This document shows positions 26,869 to 60,862 of a DNA stretch of 61,415 nucleotides, piece after piece (within the stretch, counting starts at the first letter, position 1; the number at the start of each line of letters is the position of its first letter). The DNA comes from an uncultured Porphyromonadaceae bacterium (GTDB lineage: Bacteria; Bacteroidota; Bacteroidia; Bacteroidales; Muribaculaceae), in assembly GCA_946410185.1 (NCBI GenBank), contig CAMJZI010000006.1, forward strand, positions 1-61,415. The letters are read 5' to 3'. A model generated the notes under the pieces. The model was not told the DNA's origin and ran no database searches. It saw nothing but the letters and a program-made list of their open reading frames with translations. Position numbers and translations under genes: made by a program.

Positions 26869-28799
26869 TGAAACGATTCTGTTTTCTGCTCGCGATATTC
26901 ATGGCATTACTCGCATCACAATATGCCGAAGCCCACACCAGGGCATTGTATGGCCCGAATGGAACCTACTTCTGCATCGAGACCAACAGCGACGCCCAGC
27001 AGGTGAAGTTGCGCATCTATAAAGATGGTCAGGGTGGCAAACCCATCAAGACGATCAACATGAAACTGGATCCGAACGACTCGGGCCAGAATTGGTGGCA
27101 AGCCGAAGTCAAGGGTGACTTGAAGGGCAAGTTCTACACCTTTGACGTGAAGTATGGCGGCAAGTTCCGCGGCGAGAGCCCAGGTATCTGGGCAACCGCC
27201 GTGGGCGTGAACGGCAAGCGCGGTGCTGTCGTTGACATGGACGAGACCAATCCTCATGGCTGGGACAACGACAAGCGTCCCGACATTCCCGCCAAGGATC
27301 TCATCCTCTACGAGATGCACCACCGCGATTTCTCCATCGATGACTCGGGCGGCTTTACCCACAAGGGTAAATTCCTCGCCTTGACCGAGCCACGTGCCAT
27401 CAGACACCTGCAGGAGTTGGGTGTGAACGCGGTGCACATCCTGCCGTCGTTTGACTATGCCTCGGTCGATGAGACCCGCCTCGACGAGCCGCAGTACAAC
27501 TGGGGCTATGACCCCGTCAACTACAATGTGCCCGAGGGCGGCTATTCCACCGACCCCAACAAGCCCGAGGTGCGCATCCGCGAGTTCAAGCAGATGGTCC
27601 AGGCACTCCACAAGGCCGGTATCAAGGTCATCCTCGACGTGGTGTATAACCACACCTGGAACATCGACGGCAGCAACTTCCAGCTCACACGCCCCGACTA
27701 CTTCTACCGCAAGAATGCCGACGGCTCATACAGCAACGGCAGCGGATGCGGCAACGAGACGGCCAGCGAGCGCGAGGCCATGCGCGAGTTCATGGTCGAG
27801 AGCGTGAAGTACTGGGTCGACGAGTACCATATCGACGGTTTCCGCTTTGACCTGATGGGCGTGCACGATATCGAGACGATGAATGCCATCCGCGCCGCCG
27901 TGCCCAAGGACATCTTCATCTATGGCGAGGGCTGGAGCGCCGGCTCTTGCGCCTATCCCGGCGAGAAACTGGCCATGAAGGCCAACATCCAGCAGATGCC
28001 GGGCATCGCAGCCTTCAGCGATTGCATGCGCGACGCGCTTCGCGGCCCGTGGGACAGCGACAGCAAGGCCGCCTTCCTGGGCGGTGTCAAGGGCAACGAA
28101 GAGAGCATCAAGTTCGGCATCGTGGGTGCCATCCAGCATCCTGGAGTGGATTACAGCAAGGTGAACTACAGCAAGGCCCCCTATGCCACCGAGCCGACTC
28201 AAATGATCGCCTACGTCAGCTGCCACGACGACATGTGCCTGGTGGACCGCCTCAATGCCAGCGTCAAGGGTATCACCATCGACGAACTCATCCGCCTGGA
28301 CCTGCTGGCACAGACTGTGGTGATGACCTCGCAGGGCGTGCCGTTCATGCTCAGCGGCGAGGAGATGCTGCGCGACAAGAAGGGCGTCCACAACAGTTTT
28401 GAGAGTCCCGACAGCATCAACCACCTGGACTGGGACAACCTGGAGCGTTACCCACAAGTGATGGAGTACTACCGTGGGCTCATCGCCATGCGCAAAGCCC
28501 ATCCCGCCTTCCACATGGGCAGCGCCGACATGGTGCGCCGCAATCTCGACTTCCTGCCTGTTGAGAACTGCCTCGTGGCCTACCACATCAACGGCCGTAA
28601 CGTGCCTGGCGAACAGTGGGGCGACATCTACGTCGCCTTCAACGCCCACAAGCGCGCCCGCACCATCCAGGTTCCCGAGGGCACCTACACCGTCGTCTGC
28701 CGCAACATCAAGTGTGACCCATCCGGCCTCACCACCATCACCACCAAGGACGGCAAAGTCACCATCCCCGCCCAGAGCGCCCTCATCCTCCACAACTAG
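26868..28799 (+). CDS. pulA: Type I pullulanase, GH13_14
   Basis: Hydrolyses alpha-1,6 branches in pullulan and limit dextrins. The ATG at 26868 is used rather than the GTG one codon earlier; it overlaps the malQ stop. The 643-residue protein has a signal peptide (LLAIFMALLASQYAEA), a CBM48-like domain (about 25-130), then the GH13 barrel. YNWGYDPVNYNVPEGGYSTD is the type I pullulanase signature. Catalytic motifs are DGFRFDLMGVHD, FIYGEGWSAGS and YVSCHDDMCL. No lipobox, so probably periplasmic. Confidence 0.94.
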   Translation: MKRFCFLLAIFMALLASQYAEAHTRALYGPNGTYFCIETNSDAQQVKLRIYKDGQGGKPIKTINMKLDPNDSGQNWWQAEVKGDLKGKFYTFDVKYGGKFRGESPGIWATAVGVNGKRGAVVDMDETNPHGWDNDKRPDIPAKDLILYEMHHRDFSIDDSGGFTHKGKFLALTEPRAIRHLQELGVNAVHILPSFDYASVDETRLDEPQYNWGYDPVNYNVPEGGYSTDPNKPEVRIREFKQMVQALHKAGIKVILDVVYNHTWNIDGSNFQLTRPDYFYRKNADGSYSNGSGCGNETASEREAMREFMVESVKYWVDEYHIDGFRFDLMGVHDIETMNAIRAAVPKDIFIYGEGWSAGSCAYPGEKLAMKANIQQMPGIAAFSDCMRDALRGPWDSDSKAAFLGGVKGNEESIKFGIVGAIQHPGVDYSKVNYSKAPYATEPTQMIAYVSCHDDMCLVDRLNASVKGITIDELIRLDLLAQTVVMTSQGVPFMLSGEEMLRDKKGVHNSFESPDSINHLDWDNLERYPQVMEYYRGLIAMRKAHPAFHMGSADMVRRNLDFLPVENCLVAYHINGRNVPGEQWGDIYVAFNAHKRARTIQVPEGTYTVVCRNIKCDPSGLTTITTKDGKVTIPAQSALILHN

Positions 28800-28805
28800 C
28801 CCCTA

Positions 28806-28910
28806 ACGGATATTACGGAGAGAACGGAGATAACGGAGGTTACGGGCCATCCCATGACCTCCGTTTTATCCGTTTTATCCGTTCTCTCCGTTTTATCCGT
28901 TTTATCCGTT
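28806..28910. repeat. Inverted pair of 9-bp repeat arrays (ACGGA / TCCGTT)
   Basis: ACGGA or ACGGG starts at 28806, 28815, 28824, 28833 and 28842. TCCGTT starts at 28860, 28869, 28878, 28887, 28896 and 28905. Both have an exact 9-bp period and face each other, so they can fold as a long interrupted hairpin. Its core is a perfect 9-bp stem, AACGGAGGT (28832-28840) with ACCTCCGTT (28857-28865). The second array overlaps the stop codon and last codons of the four-helix-bundle gene. It may also end pulA transcription. Confidence 0.88.
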
Positions 28911-29597
28911 CTTCCCGTCTTGCTTGTCGAGCAGGGCCTTTAACCGAGCGATTTCCTGCTTCAGGGCAGTGATTTCCTGGGCTTGACGTTCAATAATTTC
29001 CTTTTGAGTGGCGCGTTGGTCCAAACGGGCTGCCGTCATGCGTTCACGGATGCCGCCCTCGGTCGTGAATTCACGGTCTTTCCTCTCGATGTATTTGTTC
29101 AATGCTGCATCCACCTGATGGCACAGACAGATGGCCATGTTAGCCATCTCATCGTCATTCATCTTGGGAAGCAGTTCCTTATAATCCTCAAATTTCCAAT
29201 GCTTGCGGCAGAACTCATGCATATTCTTAAAACGAGGATGCTTGCCATACCATTCGATATAGCCCTTACGCTTGATATAATCTTGATAATCCTCAAGCAG
29301 TTCCTTGTTGCTACCACGGGCAACCCCCAGAAGTTTCAATTCAGTTTCCGTCGAGGTCTCTCCATCACTGCTACCCTCAACTATGTTCTGTTTGGTGCTA
29401 CGGGCCGCCTGTACCATCTGGTCAACCGTTCGGTCGCCATATTGTTTTAAGAACCTCTGGCAGAACACTTGTGTCAACTGATACAAGACATCACTGCGCT
29501 GATAAAAGCGCAACTCCGAATACATTACCCTCTTGCGCAATGCGCTGGCCGTCCCGTCATCATAATGGTTGACTTGTGGTTTCATTCCACCCATCAT
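28902..29597 (-). CDS. Four-helix-bundle (S23/Avd-like) protein with suffix domain and coiled coil
   Basis: The 231-residue protein matches the four-helix-bundle family that includes 23S rRNA intervening-sequence proteins and the retroelement accessory protein Avd. Visible signs are LYQLTQVFCQRFLKQYGDR, then AARSTKQNIVEGSSDGETST near residue 62 and LGVARGSNKELLEDYQDYI near 90. A C-terminal coiled coil (about 190-226) ends the chain. No reverse transcriptase or rRNA is nearby. Starts at 29597, 29594 or 29585 are all possible. Flanking arrays of 9-bp period run into both ends. Function is unknown. Confidence 0.82.
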   Translation of the reverse strand: MMGGMKPQVNHYDDGTASALRKRVMYSELRFYQRSDVLYQLTQVFCQRFLKQYGDRTVDQMVQAARSTKQNIVEGSSDGETSTETELKLLGVARGSNKELLEDYQDYIKRKGYIEWYGKHPRFKNMHEFCRKHWKFEDYKELLPKMNDDEMANMAICLCHQVDAALNKYIERKDREFTTEGGIRERMTAARLDQRATQKEIIERQAQEITALKQEIARLKALLDKQDGKNG

Positions 29598-29613
29598 TAA
29601 TGAAAAAGCTTCC

Positions 29614-29656
29614 TCCGTTTCCTCCGTTACTTCCGGTCTCTCCGGTCGTCTCTCCG
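29614..29656. repeat. 9-bp repeat array (TCCG core) upstream of four-helix-bundle gene
   Basis: TCCG occurs at 29614, 29623, 29632 and 29641, an exact 9-bp period, and again at 29653. The array fills the space between the four-helix-bundle start and the ddl stop codon. In the direction of the gene the units read GGAGGA, so one copy could act as a ribosome-binding site. Confidence 0.8.
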
Positions 29657-29657
29657 G

Positions 29658-30662
29658 TCAAGAGAACTGGTTCTCTATGATGTCGGTGAGAACGTCGGTC
29701 AGGTTCAGGCCGGCGGCTCGCACTTGCTGGGGGATGAAGCTGGTGACCGTCATGCCAGGGGTGGTGTTGATTTCCAGCAGGTTGATGTGGTCACTGCCGT
29801 CAGGATTCTTGGTGATGATGTAGTCGATGCGGATGATGCCGTTGCAATGCAGGATGTCGTAGATGCGTGATGTCTCGGCCTGCAGGGCGGCAGTCAACTC
29901 GTCGCTGATGCGGGCAGGCGTGATTTCATCGACCTGGCCGTTATACTTGGCATCGTAATCGAAGAACTCGTTGTCGGTAACGACCTCGGTGACAGGGAAG
30001 ACAACCGAATTCTTCTTGGTCTTGTAGCAACCCACGGTCACCTCCGTACCATCAAGGAAACGCTCAATCATCACATTGTCGCACTGCTTGAATGCAAACT
30101 CCATGGCGTCATCCAGCTGACTGCAGTTCTTCACCTTGGTCACGCCAAAACTGGAACCGTCGGCGGCAGGTTTCACAAAGCAGGGCATTCCCAGATAGGC
30201 CTCGACCTTCTCGGCGGTCCATCCATGAGGCACGCCACGGCGCACGAGTATGCTGTCGGGCACCGAGCAACCAAAGGCCCGTAAGTAGTTGTTGAGGGCA
30301 AACTTGTGGAACGTCAATGCCTCGACCAGCACATTACAGGTCGAGTAAGGCATGTTGATGAGGTCAAAATAGCCCTGCAGCACACCATTCTCGCCAGGGG
30401 TGCCGTGGATGGTGATATATGCGTAGTCAAAGCGGATTTTCTTGCCGTCCTTCATGAACGAGAAGTCGTTCTTGTCGATTTGGGGCTGGGTGCCGTCTGA
30501 CAGGTTCACGTGCCAGTCCTGGCCGCGTAACACAACGATATAAACATTGTAACGATCGTGGTCAAAGGCCGAATCCAGGCCCTGGGCTGAACGCAGAGAC
30601 ACCTCGTGCTCTGATGAGTCGCCACCGCACACGATGGCTATGGTTCTTTTGATGAAGTTCAT
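29658..30662 (-). CDS. ddl: D-alanine--D-alanine ligase
   Basis: Joins two D-alanines for peptidoglycan precursors, using ATP. The start at 30662 gives MNFIKRTIAIVCGGDSSEHE and 334 residues; upstream codons would cover the promoter. The ATP-grasp fold shows GGDSSEHEVSLRS (residues 13-25), ITIHGTPGENGVLQGYFDL, PCFVKPAADGSSFGVTKV and the metal-binding end LLEINTTPGMT. It is divergent from murF, which uses its product, with an 88-bp shared promoter region. Confidence 0.97.
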   Translation of the reverse strand: MNFIKRTIAIVCGGDSSEHEVSLRSAQGLDSAFDHDRYNVYIVVLRGQDWHVNLSDGTQPQIDKNDFSFMKDGKKIRFDYAYITIHGTPGENGVLQGYFDLINMPYSTCNVLVEALTFHKFALNNYLRAFGCSVPDSILVRRGVPHGWTAEKVEAYLGMPCFVKPAADGSSFGVTKVKNCSQLDDAMEFAFKQCDNVMIERFLDGTEVTVGCYKTKKNSVVFPVTEVVTDNEFFDYDAKYNGQVDEITPARISDELTAALQAETSRIYDILHCNGIIRIDYIITKNPDGSDHINLLEINTTPGMTVTSFIPQQVRAAGLNLTDVLTDIIENQFS

Positions 30663-42820: not shown

Positions 42821-42927
42821 TAGTTTTAAGTTGTAAGTTTTAAGTTTTTAGTACGATTACTATTGCCTGAAAAATGATGAGACTATGGTATTCTTACTTA
42901 AAACCAAAAACTTAAAACTTACAACTC
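42821..42927. repeat. 7-bp periodic array forming a 21-bp inverted repeat
   Basis: The terminal G of each unit (TTTTAAG, TTGTAAG, TTTTAAG, TTTTTAG) lies at 42823, 42830, 42837, 42844 and 42851. On the other arm C lies at 42897, 42904, 42911, 42918 and 42925. Both have an exact 7-bp period. The arms 42829-42849 and 42906-42926 are perfect reverse complements with a 56-base loop. The element fills the gap between two starch-binding protein genes. Confidence 0.9.
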
Positions 42928-44030: not shown

Positions 44031-44040
44031 ATTCTTTTTT

Positions 44041-44107
44041 TAGTTTTTAGTTTTCAGTTGTCAGCCTTCAGTTGATTGTCAACCGAGGCTGACAACTGAA
44101 AAACTAG
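44041..44107. repeat. 7-bp periodic array forming a 19-bp inverted repeat
   Basis: AG ends units at 44043, 44050, 44057, 44064 and 44071, an exact 7-bp period (TTTTTAG, TTTTCAG, TTGTCAG, CCTTCAG). The arm TAGTTTTCAGTTGTCAGCC (44048-44066) is the reverse complement of 44087-44106 except for one extra A. It fills the gap between two sus genes. Confidence 0.87.
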
Positions 44108-53275: not shown

Positions 53276-55057
53276 ATGAGTAGAGAGACTTTTCCACACC
53301 TTGAGGCGCTGCGCGAGGAGATGCGCCGCCTGAATGTTGATGCCGTTATCATCCCCGGCACCGATCCCCACCAGAGTGAATACATCTGCGACCACTGGAA
53401 ATTTCGCGACTGGGTGTGCGGCTTCACGGGCAGCAACGGCACCGCCGTGGTCACGCTTGACCAGGCCGCACTGTGGACCGATTCCCGATATTTCCTGCAA
53501 GCCGGCATCGAACTGGCTGACAGTGGTTTTGTGATGATGAAGGAAAATATGGGCAACGATCCCACCATCCACGAGTGGCTGCAACAGGTGCTGGACGAAG
53601 ACGCTGTCATCGCCATTGACGGGCGCCTGTATAGCGCTCAGGATGCCAACCAGTTGGAGCGATTCTGCGGCGAAAATGGTTTCATGCTCGCCACCGAGTT
53701 TTTTCCGGCCGACAGAATCTGGCCCGACCGCCCTGCACGCCCCAGTGAGCCAGCCTATGTCCACGACGTGCAATATGCCGGCGAAGAGGCTGTTGACAAG
53801 ATAGAACGTCTGATCAAGGTGCTCGAGGACAACGAGGCTACCGCCATGCTGGTGACTGCCCTCGACGACATTGCCTGGCTGCTCAACCTGCGTGGCAACG
53901 ACGTGGAGTTCACGCCGGTAGCCATCGCCTTTGCTTATATCTCACGCAACAACAGGGAACTGTTCATCGACGAGAACAAGGTGACCGACGAGGTGCGCCA
54001 GCACCTCAAGGCCTGCGGCGTGAGGGTGCGCAACTATGACGACATCGTCCACTTCCTGGAACGTGTGAACGAACACGAGGTGGTCCTCATCGACCCCAAC
54101 CGTGTGAGCGACACCCTGGCCAACGCGCTCCCCTGTCAGAAGGTTTACTTCCGCTCTCCCATCACCGACCTCAAGTGCATCAAGAACGAAGTGCAGATCA
54201 GTGGGTTCCGCCACGCCATGGAGCGCGATGGCGCAGCCCTGGTGCGACTGTTCAAGTGGATCGAGGAAATGGCTCCCGGCGGCACCATCAACGAGGTGGA
54301 CGTGTGGAACAAGGGCATGGAGCTGCGCGCTCAGCAGAGCCTGTACAAGGAGGACAGTTTTGCCATGATATGCGGCTACAAGGAGCATGGCGCCATCGTG
54401 CACTACGAGGCGACCGACGAGAGCGCCTCGACCCTGCATGGCGAGGGCATCCTGCTCGTTGACAGTGGCGCCCAGTACCTTGACGGCACTACCGACATTA
54501 CCCGCACCATCACCCTGGGCAACCCCTCGCCACAAGAGAAGCACGACTTCACGCTTGTGCTCAAGGGACACCTGGCTCTGCAACGCGCCAAGTTCCCCGT
54601 GGGCACCACGGGCTGCCAACTCGACGTGCTTGCCCGCATGCCACTGTGGCAGGAGGCAATGACCTATGGGCACGGCACCGGGCACGGCGTGGGCCACTTC
54701 CTGGGTTGCCACGAGGGGCCGCAAAGCATCCGCACCAACCTCGTTGACGTGAAACTTATGCCTGGCATGATTACCAGCAACGAGCCAGGACTGTACAAGG
54801 CAGGCGAATACGGCATCCGCACCGAGAACCTGCTGCTCGTCGTCGAGTCCGAGAAGACCGAGGATTTTGGTAATTTCCTCACGTTCGAGCCGTTGACGCT
54901 CTTCCCCTACGACCTGCAGCTCATCGACCGCTCGATGCTCACCGCTGAGGAAATAGCACAGATCAACGACTACCACCGCATGGTGCGCGAGCGCATCACC
55001 CCGCTCTTGAATGCCGACGAGGCTTCCTGGCTCGCCGCCAAAACCAAAGAACTCTAA
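53276..55057 (+). CDS. pepP: Xaa-Pro aminopeptidase (aminopeptidase P), M24B
   Basis: Removes N-terminal residues that precede proline. The 593-residue protein has the three-domain layout of long aminopeptidase P enzymes such as human XPNPEP1. Two creatinase-like N-terminal domains (VDAVIIPGTDPHQSEYIC near 20; TALDDIAWLLNLRGNDVEF near 192) precede the pita-bread domain. Dimetal ligands lie in LLVDSGAQYLDGTTDITRT, GTGHGVGHFLGCHEGPQ and MITSNEPGLYKAGEYGIRTE. No signal peptide: cytoplasmic. A 7-bp periodic array separates it from the next gene. Confidence 0.95.
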   Translation: MSRETFPHLEALREEMRRLNVDAVIIPGTDPHQSEYICDHWKFRDWVCGFTGSNGTAVVTLDQAALWTDSRYFLQAGIELADSGFVMMKENMGNDPTIHEWLQQVLDEDAVIAIDGRLYSAQDANQLERFCGENGFMLATEFFPADRIWPDRPARPSEPAYVHDVQYAGEEAVDKIERLIKVLEDNEATAMLVTALDDIAWLLNLRGNDVEFTPVAIAFAYISRNNRELFIDENKVTDEVRQHLKACGVRVRNYDDIVHFLERVNEHEVVLIDPNRVSDTLANALPCQKVYFRSPITDLKCIKNEVQISGFRHAMERDGAALVRLFKWIEEMAPGGTINEVDVWNKGMELRAQQSLYKEDSFAMICGYKEHGAIVHYEATDESASTLHGEGILLVDSGAQYLDGTTDITRTITLGNPSPQEKHDFTLVLKGHLALQRAKFPVGTTGCQLDVLARMPLWQEAMTYGHGTGHGVGHFLGCHEGPQSIRTNLVDVKLMPGMITSNEPGLYKAGEYGIRTENLLLVVESEKTEDFGNFLTFEPLTLFPYDLQLIDRSMLTAEEIAQINDYHRMVRERITPLLNADEASWLAAKTKEL

Positions 55058-55095
55058 AAGCCAAAAACTAAAAACTAAAAACTAAAAACTAAAAC
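55054..55095. repeat. Six 7-bp units (CTAAAAA)
   Basis: C lies at 55054, 55061, 55068, 55075, 55082 and 55089: CTAAAAG, CCAAAAA, CTAAAAA three times, CTAAAAC. It starts at the pepP stop codon and runs to the start of the next gene. It is single-armed, unlike the arrays at 42821 and 44041, but the unit is the complement of TTTTTAG found in those arrays. Confidence 0.88.
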
Positions 55096-60749: not shown

Positions 60750-60780
60750 ACTCTTTTATCTAAATACCACTCCACAAAAC

Positions 60781-60800
60781 CCCATAATTCCCCATAATTC
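60781..60800. repeat. Direct 10-bp tandem repeat (CCCATAATTC) twice
   Basis: Two exact copies at 60781-60790 and 60791-60800, followed by a third partial start (CAT). They lie in the 213-bp region between the divergent DUF4421 and SDR genes. Confidence 0.7.
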
Positions 60801-60862
60801 CATCGCACCATCAAAAAATAACCTCCCCATCGACGGCAAGAAAGAAAAAAAGAGGGGTCTTG

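Follow-up and report, generated by a model that had tools for sequence, protein, structure and literature searches.

Introduction

In RAYT systems, a single gene is paired with a type of dispersed short repeat that is specific to it and that also flanks it. REP repeats are described, in the excerpt used here, as single palindromes of 20-40 bp (PMC3733652). Described heptameric repeats include TAACTGA (PMC4679880) and GGGNATC, the latter in Xanthomonas and Nostoc (PMC4692102), and GGGAATC heptamers are enriched in X. campestris according to the same 2015 paper, which also stated that detailed literature on heptameric repeats was unavailable (PMC4692102). MacGregor proposed S1, Csp or Csr proteins as heptamer binders (PMC4679880); these statements follow excerpts of the two papers. 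The intervening sequence (IVS) of the 23S rRNA of Coxiella burnetii contains an S23 ORF, whose start codon is preceded by a tandem array of two or three GACAGAT heptamers plus one that is degenerate. In the excerpt used here the number of these heptamers varies between strains, the IVS is termed a selfish element and S23-type proteins are said to have no known function (PMC4990558).

Here we describe a 61,415-nucleotide stretch of DNA (the window) in which a gene for an S23-type four-helix bundle is enclosed by arrays of a 9-bp repeat. The original prediction for this locus was of a gene tied to the repeats around it, as a hypothetical element that would recognise or maintain them. No earlier report of such a gene-repeat pairing was found in the literature searched, which consisted of open-licence papers.

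Results

The window gene and its product

The four-helix-bundle gene is located at 28902..29597 on the minus strand, encodes 231 amino acids and lies between the pullulanase gene pulA, with which it is convergent, and ddl. The protein has the S23 fold and scored above the cut-offs of the NCBIfam families TIGR02436 (32.3 bits, cut-off 24) and TIGR04258, the four helix bundle suffix (62.2 bits, cut-off 40), the profile match of the suffix domain covering residues 149-196 (29010..29153, minus strand). The score against Pfam PF05635 was 31.1 bits, below the gathering cut-off of 33.8, and the protein was therefore filed as a TIGR02436/TIGR04258 member and not as a PF05635 member; this was its only Pfam match, and no Y1 (HuH) transposase domain was found. 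The AlphaFold2 model was confident (pLDDT 84.6) and contained four bundle helices, a long C-terminal helix and a short extra helix at residues 121-132 between bundle helices 3 and 4, the mean pLDDT being 90 for block 121-130 and 95 for block 131-140. Codons 121-134 (29196..29237, minus strand), which comprise this helix and residue 134, stand out by the model, by their correlation with the array core (see below) and by an alignment with three plain S23 proteins, from which the stretch is missing. The PADLOC-DB models returned 0 families for the window protein and one plain S23 protein (E 0.01), a phmmer search of the PDB returned a single match (E 0.055) and a plain S23 protein used as query gave no match in phage records.

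Arrays around the window gene

Arrays with a 9-bp period had been predicted on both sides of the gene, and every predicted unit start was found exactly in the sequence. ACGGA starts at 28806, 28815, 28824 and 28833 and ACGGG at 28842, TCCGTT starts at 28860, 28869, 28878, 28887, 28896 and 28905, and on the other side of the gene TCCG starts at 29614, 29623, 29632 and 29641, with a further TCCGG 12 bp on at 29653. Tandem Repeats Finder (TRF) picked up the same arrays. When the window was searched with TCCGTTNNN x3 (three TCCGTT units at 9-bp spacing, at most 2 mismatches), all 10 matches fell at 28805-29646, compared with a mean of 0.00 in 100 dinucleotide shuffles of the window.

Read in the sense of the gene, the downstream array (28860..28919, minus strand; sequence, TRF, shuffles) consists of a degenerate GACGGG followed by six AACGGANNN units. 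Of the seven, the degenerate unit and the one after it are inside the coding sequence, contain the stop codon and encode the end of the protein, DGKNG-stop, in agreement with the prediction that this array enters the stop codon. The facing array, with four ACGGA and one ACGGG at 9-bp spacing, is located at 28806..28846 on the plus strand (sequence, TRF, shuffles). The long hairpin expected from the two facing arrays (28805..28901, minus strand) was also obtained by RNA folding: the segment 28800-28915 reached -58.8 kcal/mol (z = -8.1), with 0/200 shuffles as good. The upstream array, between ddl and the gene (29610..29657, minus strand; sequence, TRF), has ACGGA units on the gene side and CCGGA units on the ddl side. 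As predicted, neither rRNA nor reverse transcriptase was near, with no Rfam match within 28700-29800 and with a Pfam scan of the 6 proteins encoded at 24-34 kb giving no reverse transcriptase. The proposal that a 9-bp unit exists because it keeps the codon frame during array growth fails, because many arrays are non-coding and the units of relatives measure 7, 8, 10 and 11 bp.

Period of the arrays in homologues

The flanks were scored in 83 genes, consisting of the best 80 homologous loci, the window gene and two paralogues from its own genome, and an array was defined as a 5-mer repeated at least twice at exactly 9-bp spacing in the flank. Period-9 arrays were found upstream of 47% and downstream of 59% of these genes compared with 2.0% of 1439 control segments, and 64/83 genes had such an array on at least one side; each of the other periods (6-8, 10-13) reached at most 2.4%. 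Several arrays among the other genes of this set enter the gene and are translated as tripeptides, e.g. GNSGNSG or SRNSRET.

Suffix-domain searches in 50 genomes gave 125 matches, and the 100 regions taken from them (the rest being already included or weak) extended the set to 183 genes, 142 of them distinct, with rumen MAGs making up the majority of loci. An array was present in 112/142 distinct genes, with period 9 in 92, period 8 in 9, period 10 in 6, period 7 in 3 and period 11 in 2. Homologues without periodic flanks had been named as grounds against the prediction and such genes do exist in part, given that the automatic procedure called no array in 30/142, some of which (e.g. L225 and L237) hold degenerate arrays by eye. 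The automatic procedure also called none for the paralogue on contig C84, whose decamer array was read by eye and then searched. Run lengths (units:count) were 3:37, 4:30, 5:32, 6:26 and 7:18, with fewer above; they show no multiple of five, and a pentamer ring reading five units was rejected on these grounds. Three suffix genes (L092, L100 and L105) with CCGGA arrays or array-coded tails were found in records titled Kiritimatiellae and Verrucomicrobia, where transfer between phyla, or else contamination of the MAGs, is the probable cause.

In the suffix set, a ribbon-like tail was present at the end of each of the nine genes with period 8. The 13 ribbon-tailed genes had period 8 in 9 cases, period 7 in 2 and no array in 2, and the one ribbon tail tested by Pfam matched the topoisomerase DNA-binding zinc ribbon PF01396 (35.3 bits, cut-off 32).

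Heptamer arrays at plain S23 genes

Plain four-helix genes (TIGR02436 without the suffix) from 20 of the same genomes were meant as a negative control. Their flanks had period-7 arrays in 55% of 56 flanks compared with 0.6% of 155 controls, and period 9 in 1.8%. Thirty plain loci were fetched and 29, then 28 (period scan) and 25 (duplex test) were used; a suffix gene, a partial hit and three loci truncated near a contig end account for those left out. In a phylum-wide sample of plain genes, period 7 was found in 30% of 60 flanks compared with 2.6% of 230 controls, and the loci reaching the threshold had period 7 in 13/30, period 8 in 5 and period 9 in 3; the 7-bp sets were drawn from the best-scoring TIGR02436 matches. 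S23 genes on plasmids, mostly cyanobacterial and several of them near relatives of one another, had 7-bp arrays at 10/16 plain loci fetched from 30 matching records (control 5.1% of 136). Three plain four-helix genes on cyanobacterial plasmids (L383, L387 and L393) were located inside CRISPR operons, at cas10-cmr3 and cas6-cas4 positions.

The upstream and downstream arrays of plain genes were complementary, the median duplex energy being -52.9 kcal/mol for a gene's own pair and -32.2 kcal/mol for non-cognate pairs (p = 3e-7, 25 Bacteroidota loci). In the suffix class the inverted orientation of paired arrays was weak, with 19 inverted and 29 direct of 120 (p = 0.0018). The length of the unit thus tends to follow protein architecture, with 7 bp for plain, 8 bp for zinc-ribbon and 9-10 bp for suffix proteins. 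This tie is not strict, because plain loci reach periods 8 and 9 and two ribbon-tailed genes have period 7.

Array core and protein clades

Each repeat unit joins a conserved core of 5-6 bp to a spacer that is for the most part variable, and the cores seen include TCCGGA, TCTAGA, CTATAG, ACTAGT, CCTAGG, ACGGA, CTGGA, ATGGG and CCTTAAGG. When internal units in register were counted, matching or not, core positions of the five largest classes were 91-100% conserved within arrays and the spacer was variable except for a partly conserved last base. The CCGGA class comprised 406 internal units, with the exact core in 345 and 76 different spacers.

A protein tree was built from 124 of the 142 distinct genes, leaving out rows that lacked the DRT..Q anchor or whose core was short, which included the ribbon-tailed clade. 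The core of the 99 typed genes required 24 changes among 23 motif states on this tree, compared with a mean of 56.5 and a minimum of 52 in 100 shuffles. A common core was shared by 1/48 paralogue pairs of the same genome; the genome of the window itself has three suffix genes, with ACGGA nonamers (window), CTATAG nonamers (C64) and ATGRGGT decamers (C84). These comparisons indicated that the core differs between clades and tracks the protein tree and not the genome.

Residues 127, 131 and 134 vary with the array core. Residues 127 (L versus H or R) and 134 (N versus others) split 13 CTAGA from 40 CCGGA genes 53/53, the next best column giving 48/53, and this correlation rests on only 2 independent contrasts on the tree. 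Column tests matched for distance (97/99 typed rows, the doubtful motif calls GAAAC and TGAAA being dropped) were mixed: 127 and 134 lead at 50-60% identity, not at 60-75%. CTATAG genes have Q127 in 7/8, K131 in 8/8 and N134 in 8/8. A Prevotella nigrescens plasmid gene from outside the earlier set has L127, K131 and N134 and units with a CTAG core, in line with this pattern. The extra helix is a possible reader of the core.

Arrays elsewhere in the genomes

Exact three-unit arrays were counted in 50 genomes, the gene's own array included, with reversed patterns as controls (0 to 3 per genome and strand). At least two CCGGA triplets were found in 26/26 genomes with a CCGGA-type gene compared with 1/24 without one. 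For ACGGA the corresponding numbers were 7/7 and 11/43, and for CTAGA they were 13/13 and, among genomes without a typed CTAGA gene, 22/37. G026 had 23 CCGGA triplets and no CCGGA-type gene was found in it. The CTAGA, ACGGA and G026 counts indicate that arrays can exist where no cognate gene was found. Sites away from the gene were present in all 7/7 ACGGA genomes, and in the window's genome solo arrays of the ACGGA type (at most 1 mismatch) were found on five contigs (C13, C19, C20, C28 and C33). By codon-scored placement, solo arrays occur in convergent, tandem and coding positions, one on C20 being located between convergent genes, and 21/55 arrays were at an "edge", some sites being counted repeatedly. 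Seven suffix genes (L090, L093, L094, L098, L156, L157 and L166) adjoin what look like type I restriction hsdS genes; the last three have no local array, yet their genomes hold 31-165 CTAGA triplets.

The window contains further solo arrays. A decamer array at 60769..60795 (minus strand; 3 mismatches to the pattern of the C84 paralogue, TRF 60780-60801 with period 10) has the unit core ATGGGG, which is the core of that paralogue in the same genome. Two facing heptamer arrays of AAGTTTT type at 42822..42926 (no strand assigned; TRF) resemble those beside the plain S23 genes L323 and L324 in relatives, and a CTAAAAA heptamer array lies between two tandem genes at 55040..55094 (plus strand; TRF). 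The arrays at 42822-42926 and 55040-55094 may be assigned to plain S23 genes. A third 7-bp region was seen at 44037-44059, the heptamer types across the window being AAGTTTT, TTTTTAG and CTAAAAA, and the same genome has a plain S23 gene on C56 with GTTTAGA-type heptamer flanks (L420).

Presence and absence at matching sites

Among 21 ddl loci from the window's own genome and the same genus, pulA followed ddl in 9. The whole gap between pulA and ddl held 7-11 ACGGA pairs at 9 bp in the 4 loci with the gene (own genome included, the other three probably being the same genomes as L037-L039) and none in 5/5 loci without it. ACGGA arrays without the gene at this site, which would have spoken against the prediction, were found in none of these five loci, two of which have another gene in the gap and one of which (G074) has two single units. 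The gene comes after ddl at two loci, those of the window and L034, and after pulA in L035-L040, which indicates that the block sits in either orientation. Heptamers of GATTAGT/GATTAGA type were seen at the pulA-ddl site after ddl in G056 and G059 (L354 and L356), with the four-helix gene absent there. Elsewhere, genes were found in unlike places, namely between cas10 and cmr3, between cas6 and cas4, between nrdB and nrdA and within apparent type I restriction operons.

Solo arrays also differed between relatives. The C19 array of the window's genome has a longer match in G007 and is absent in G001-G006; a second array is present in the window's genome and G007 and absent in G002, G004, G005 and G006, the G001 piece being without the junction. 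At one common site the window's genome has 2 ACGGA and 2 TCCGT units and G007 has 13 and 3. At the orthologue of the C19 site, G004 and G005 (L306 and L307) carry about 0.8 kb of inserted DNA, which by its sequence resembles a toxin-antitoxin pair of HigB/HigA kind.

Discussion

The original prediction is supported in part. Its core, a tie between the gene and the repeats around it, is backed by the association of gene and flanking arrays, by the co-variation of motif and protein over about 200 genes, including the tracking of the protein tree and the correlation with residues 127 and 134, by the cognate solo arrays, by the presence/absence pattern and by the tie between period and architecture, all of which were observed; the codon-frame reason for the 9-bp unit was not supported. 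We consider it probable, on the comparison of these sequences, that gene and arrays are one unit, a compact selfish element in which the protein would bind its own arrays. Direct binding, one protomer per unit and selfish spread are the steps that we infer. The protein would be an S23/Avd-type four-helix bundle, probably in an oligomeric state, that binds tandem copies of the short core along DNA or RNA. Growth of the unit with added protein parts would fit one protein copy per repeat unit, and the unit length would equal the protein footprint: 7 for the plain bundle, 8 with the zinc ribbon and 9 or 10 with the suffix and the extra helix, whose residues 121-134 would read the core. As to the nucleic acid bound, the zinc ribbon points to DNA, and analogy with the Avd and IVS relatives points to RNA. 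Arrays flank the gene, often on both sides, and enter its reading frame when in phase, and solo arrays elsewhere would be dispersed binding sites of the element. Gene and arrays come and go together and occupy unlike genomic places, some of them inside operons, and the block is therefore read as a probable selfish element of the rRNA IVS kind.

Recognition could also serve regulation. TRAP or CsrA-type proteins use repeated RNA sites, and a sequence-specific regulator that is not selfish could control its own transcript and a regulon through tandem sites in leaders and 3' regions. Arrays immediately ahead of the start and behind the stop in many such genes, and beside other genes elsewhere, fit such a role, as do the conserved core and spacing and the strong hairpin after the gene. 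We nevertheless regard it as rather unlikely: the solo sites differ between sister species, unlike those of a conserved regulon, and gene and arrays are missing from 5/9 pulA-ddl sites and occupy many different genomic positions.

Two further explanations need no recognition of the repeats by the protein. Slippage-prone repeats and the gene might both occupy intergenic sites that tolerate insertions and be inherited together; the repeats do expand, as seen at the site shared with G007, and descent alone can make motifs track a tree. This is improbable, however, because slippage alone would copy core and spacer alike, and inside the arrays the spacer varies around a preserved core. The period is moreover tied to protein architecture, control segments are without arrays, and paralogues within one genome hold different cores. 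Even less credible, in our view, is that the facing arrays are ordinary bidirectional terminators which merely form a 3' hairpin between convergent genes. The stable hairpin between pulA and the four-helix gene and the solo array between convergent genes on C20 agree with this, but arrays are also found on the upstream side of the gene, between tandem genes and within reading frames, and pulA-ddl neighbours without the gene are without arrays.

The gene-repeat partnership could extend well beyond the suffix class. We give about an even chance to a wider reading in which a whole class of short tandem repeats in bacteria has S23-type four-helix-bundle proteins as its missing partners. The heptamers of Bacteroidota and Cyanobacteria, and perhaps the Xanthomonas ones, would belong to this class; each protomer would bind one unit, architecture would set the unit length, residues 127, 131 and 134 would form a simple code for the core, and rRNA IVSs would be elements of this kind that have landed in rRNA. 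A protein family that recognises its own repeats might thus account for many of the short tandem repeats that bacteria carry, and the link makes both the function of the protein and the heptameric repeats approachable by simple binding experiments and by counts across genomes. Should the residue code hold, the family would offer naturally occurring, modular repeat-binding proteins, and the core and spacing that each one targets could be deduced from genome sequences.

Among the structural relatives, Avd of diversity-generating retroelements (PDB 4dwl, 8ube, 8ub7) differs by its setting, the six proteins around the window gene including no reverse transcriptase by Pfam. Xcc0516 of Xanthomonas campestris (PDB 2gsc) and BT_0352 (2rld) have chains of 117 and 112 residues, too short to hold the suffix; none of the three plain S23 sequences aligned has the extra helix, and 2gsc and 2rld are outside that alignment. 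The TAACTGA and GGGNATC heptamers resemble the arrays described here in being dispersed tandem arrays with a 7-bp unit that are more frequent than expected outside genes, Cyanobacteria and Bacteroidetes being among the groups concerned according to the excerpts used, but "S23" and "helix bundle" have 0 occurrences in the main texts of these papers (PMC4679880, PMC4692102). The rRNA IVSs share an S23-type four-helix protein gene and are bounded by complementary sequence, a trait that is clear at plain S23 genes and weak in the suffix class, and in the excerpt of the Coxiella paper used here the heptamers are not linked to the S23 protein (PMC4990558). The window element differs from them in having no rRNA, being located between pulA and ddl and not in a 23S rRNA gene, and in having the suffix domain, the extra helix, 9-bp units and solo arrays elsewhere. 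Compared with the REP/REPIN-RAYT systems (PMC3116915, excerpt), the window protein has no transposase domain and its repeats are tandem units of 7-10 bp, but the likeness is that a gene is paired with repeats of its own type, the cognate repeats of the suffix system being dispersed in the genome as they are there.
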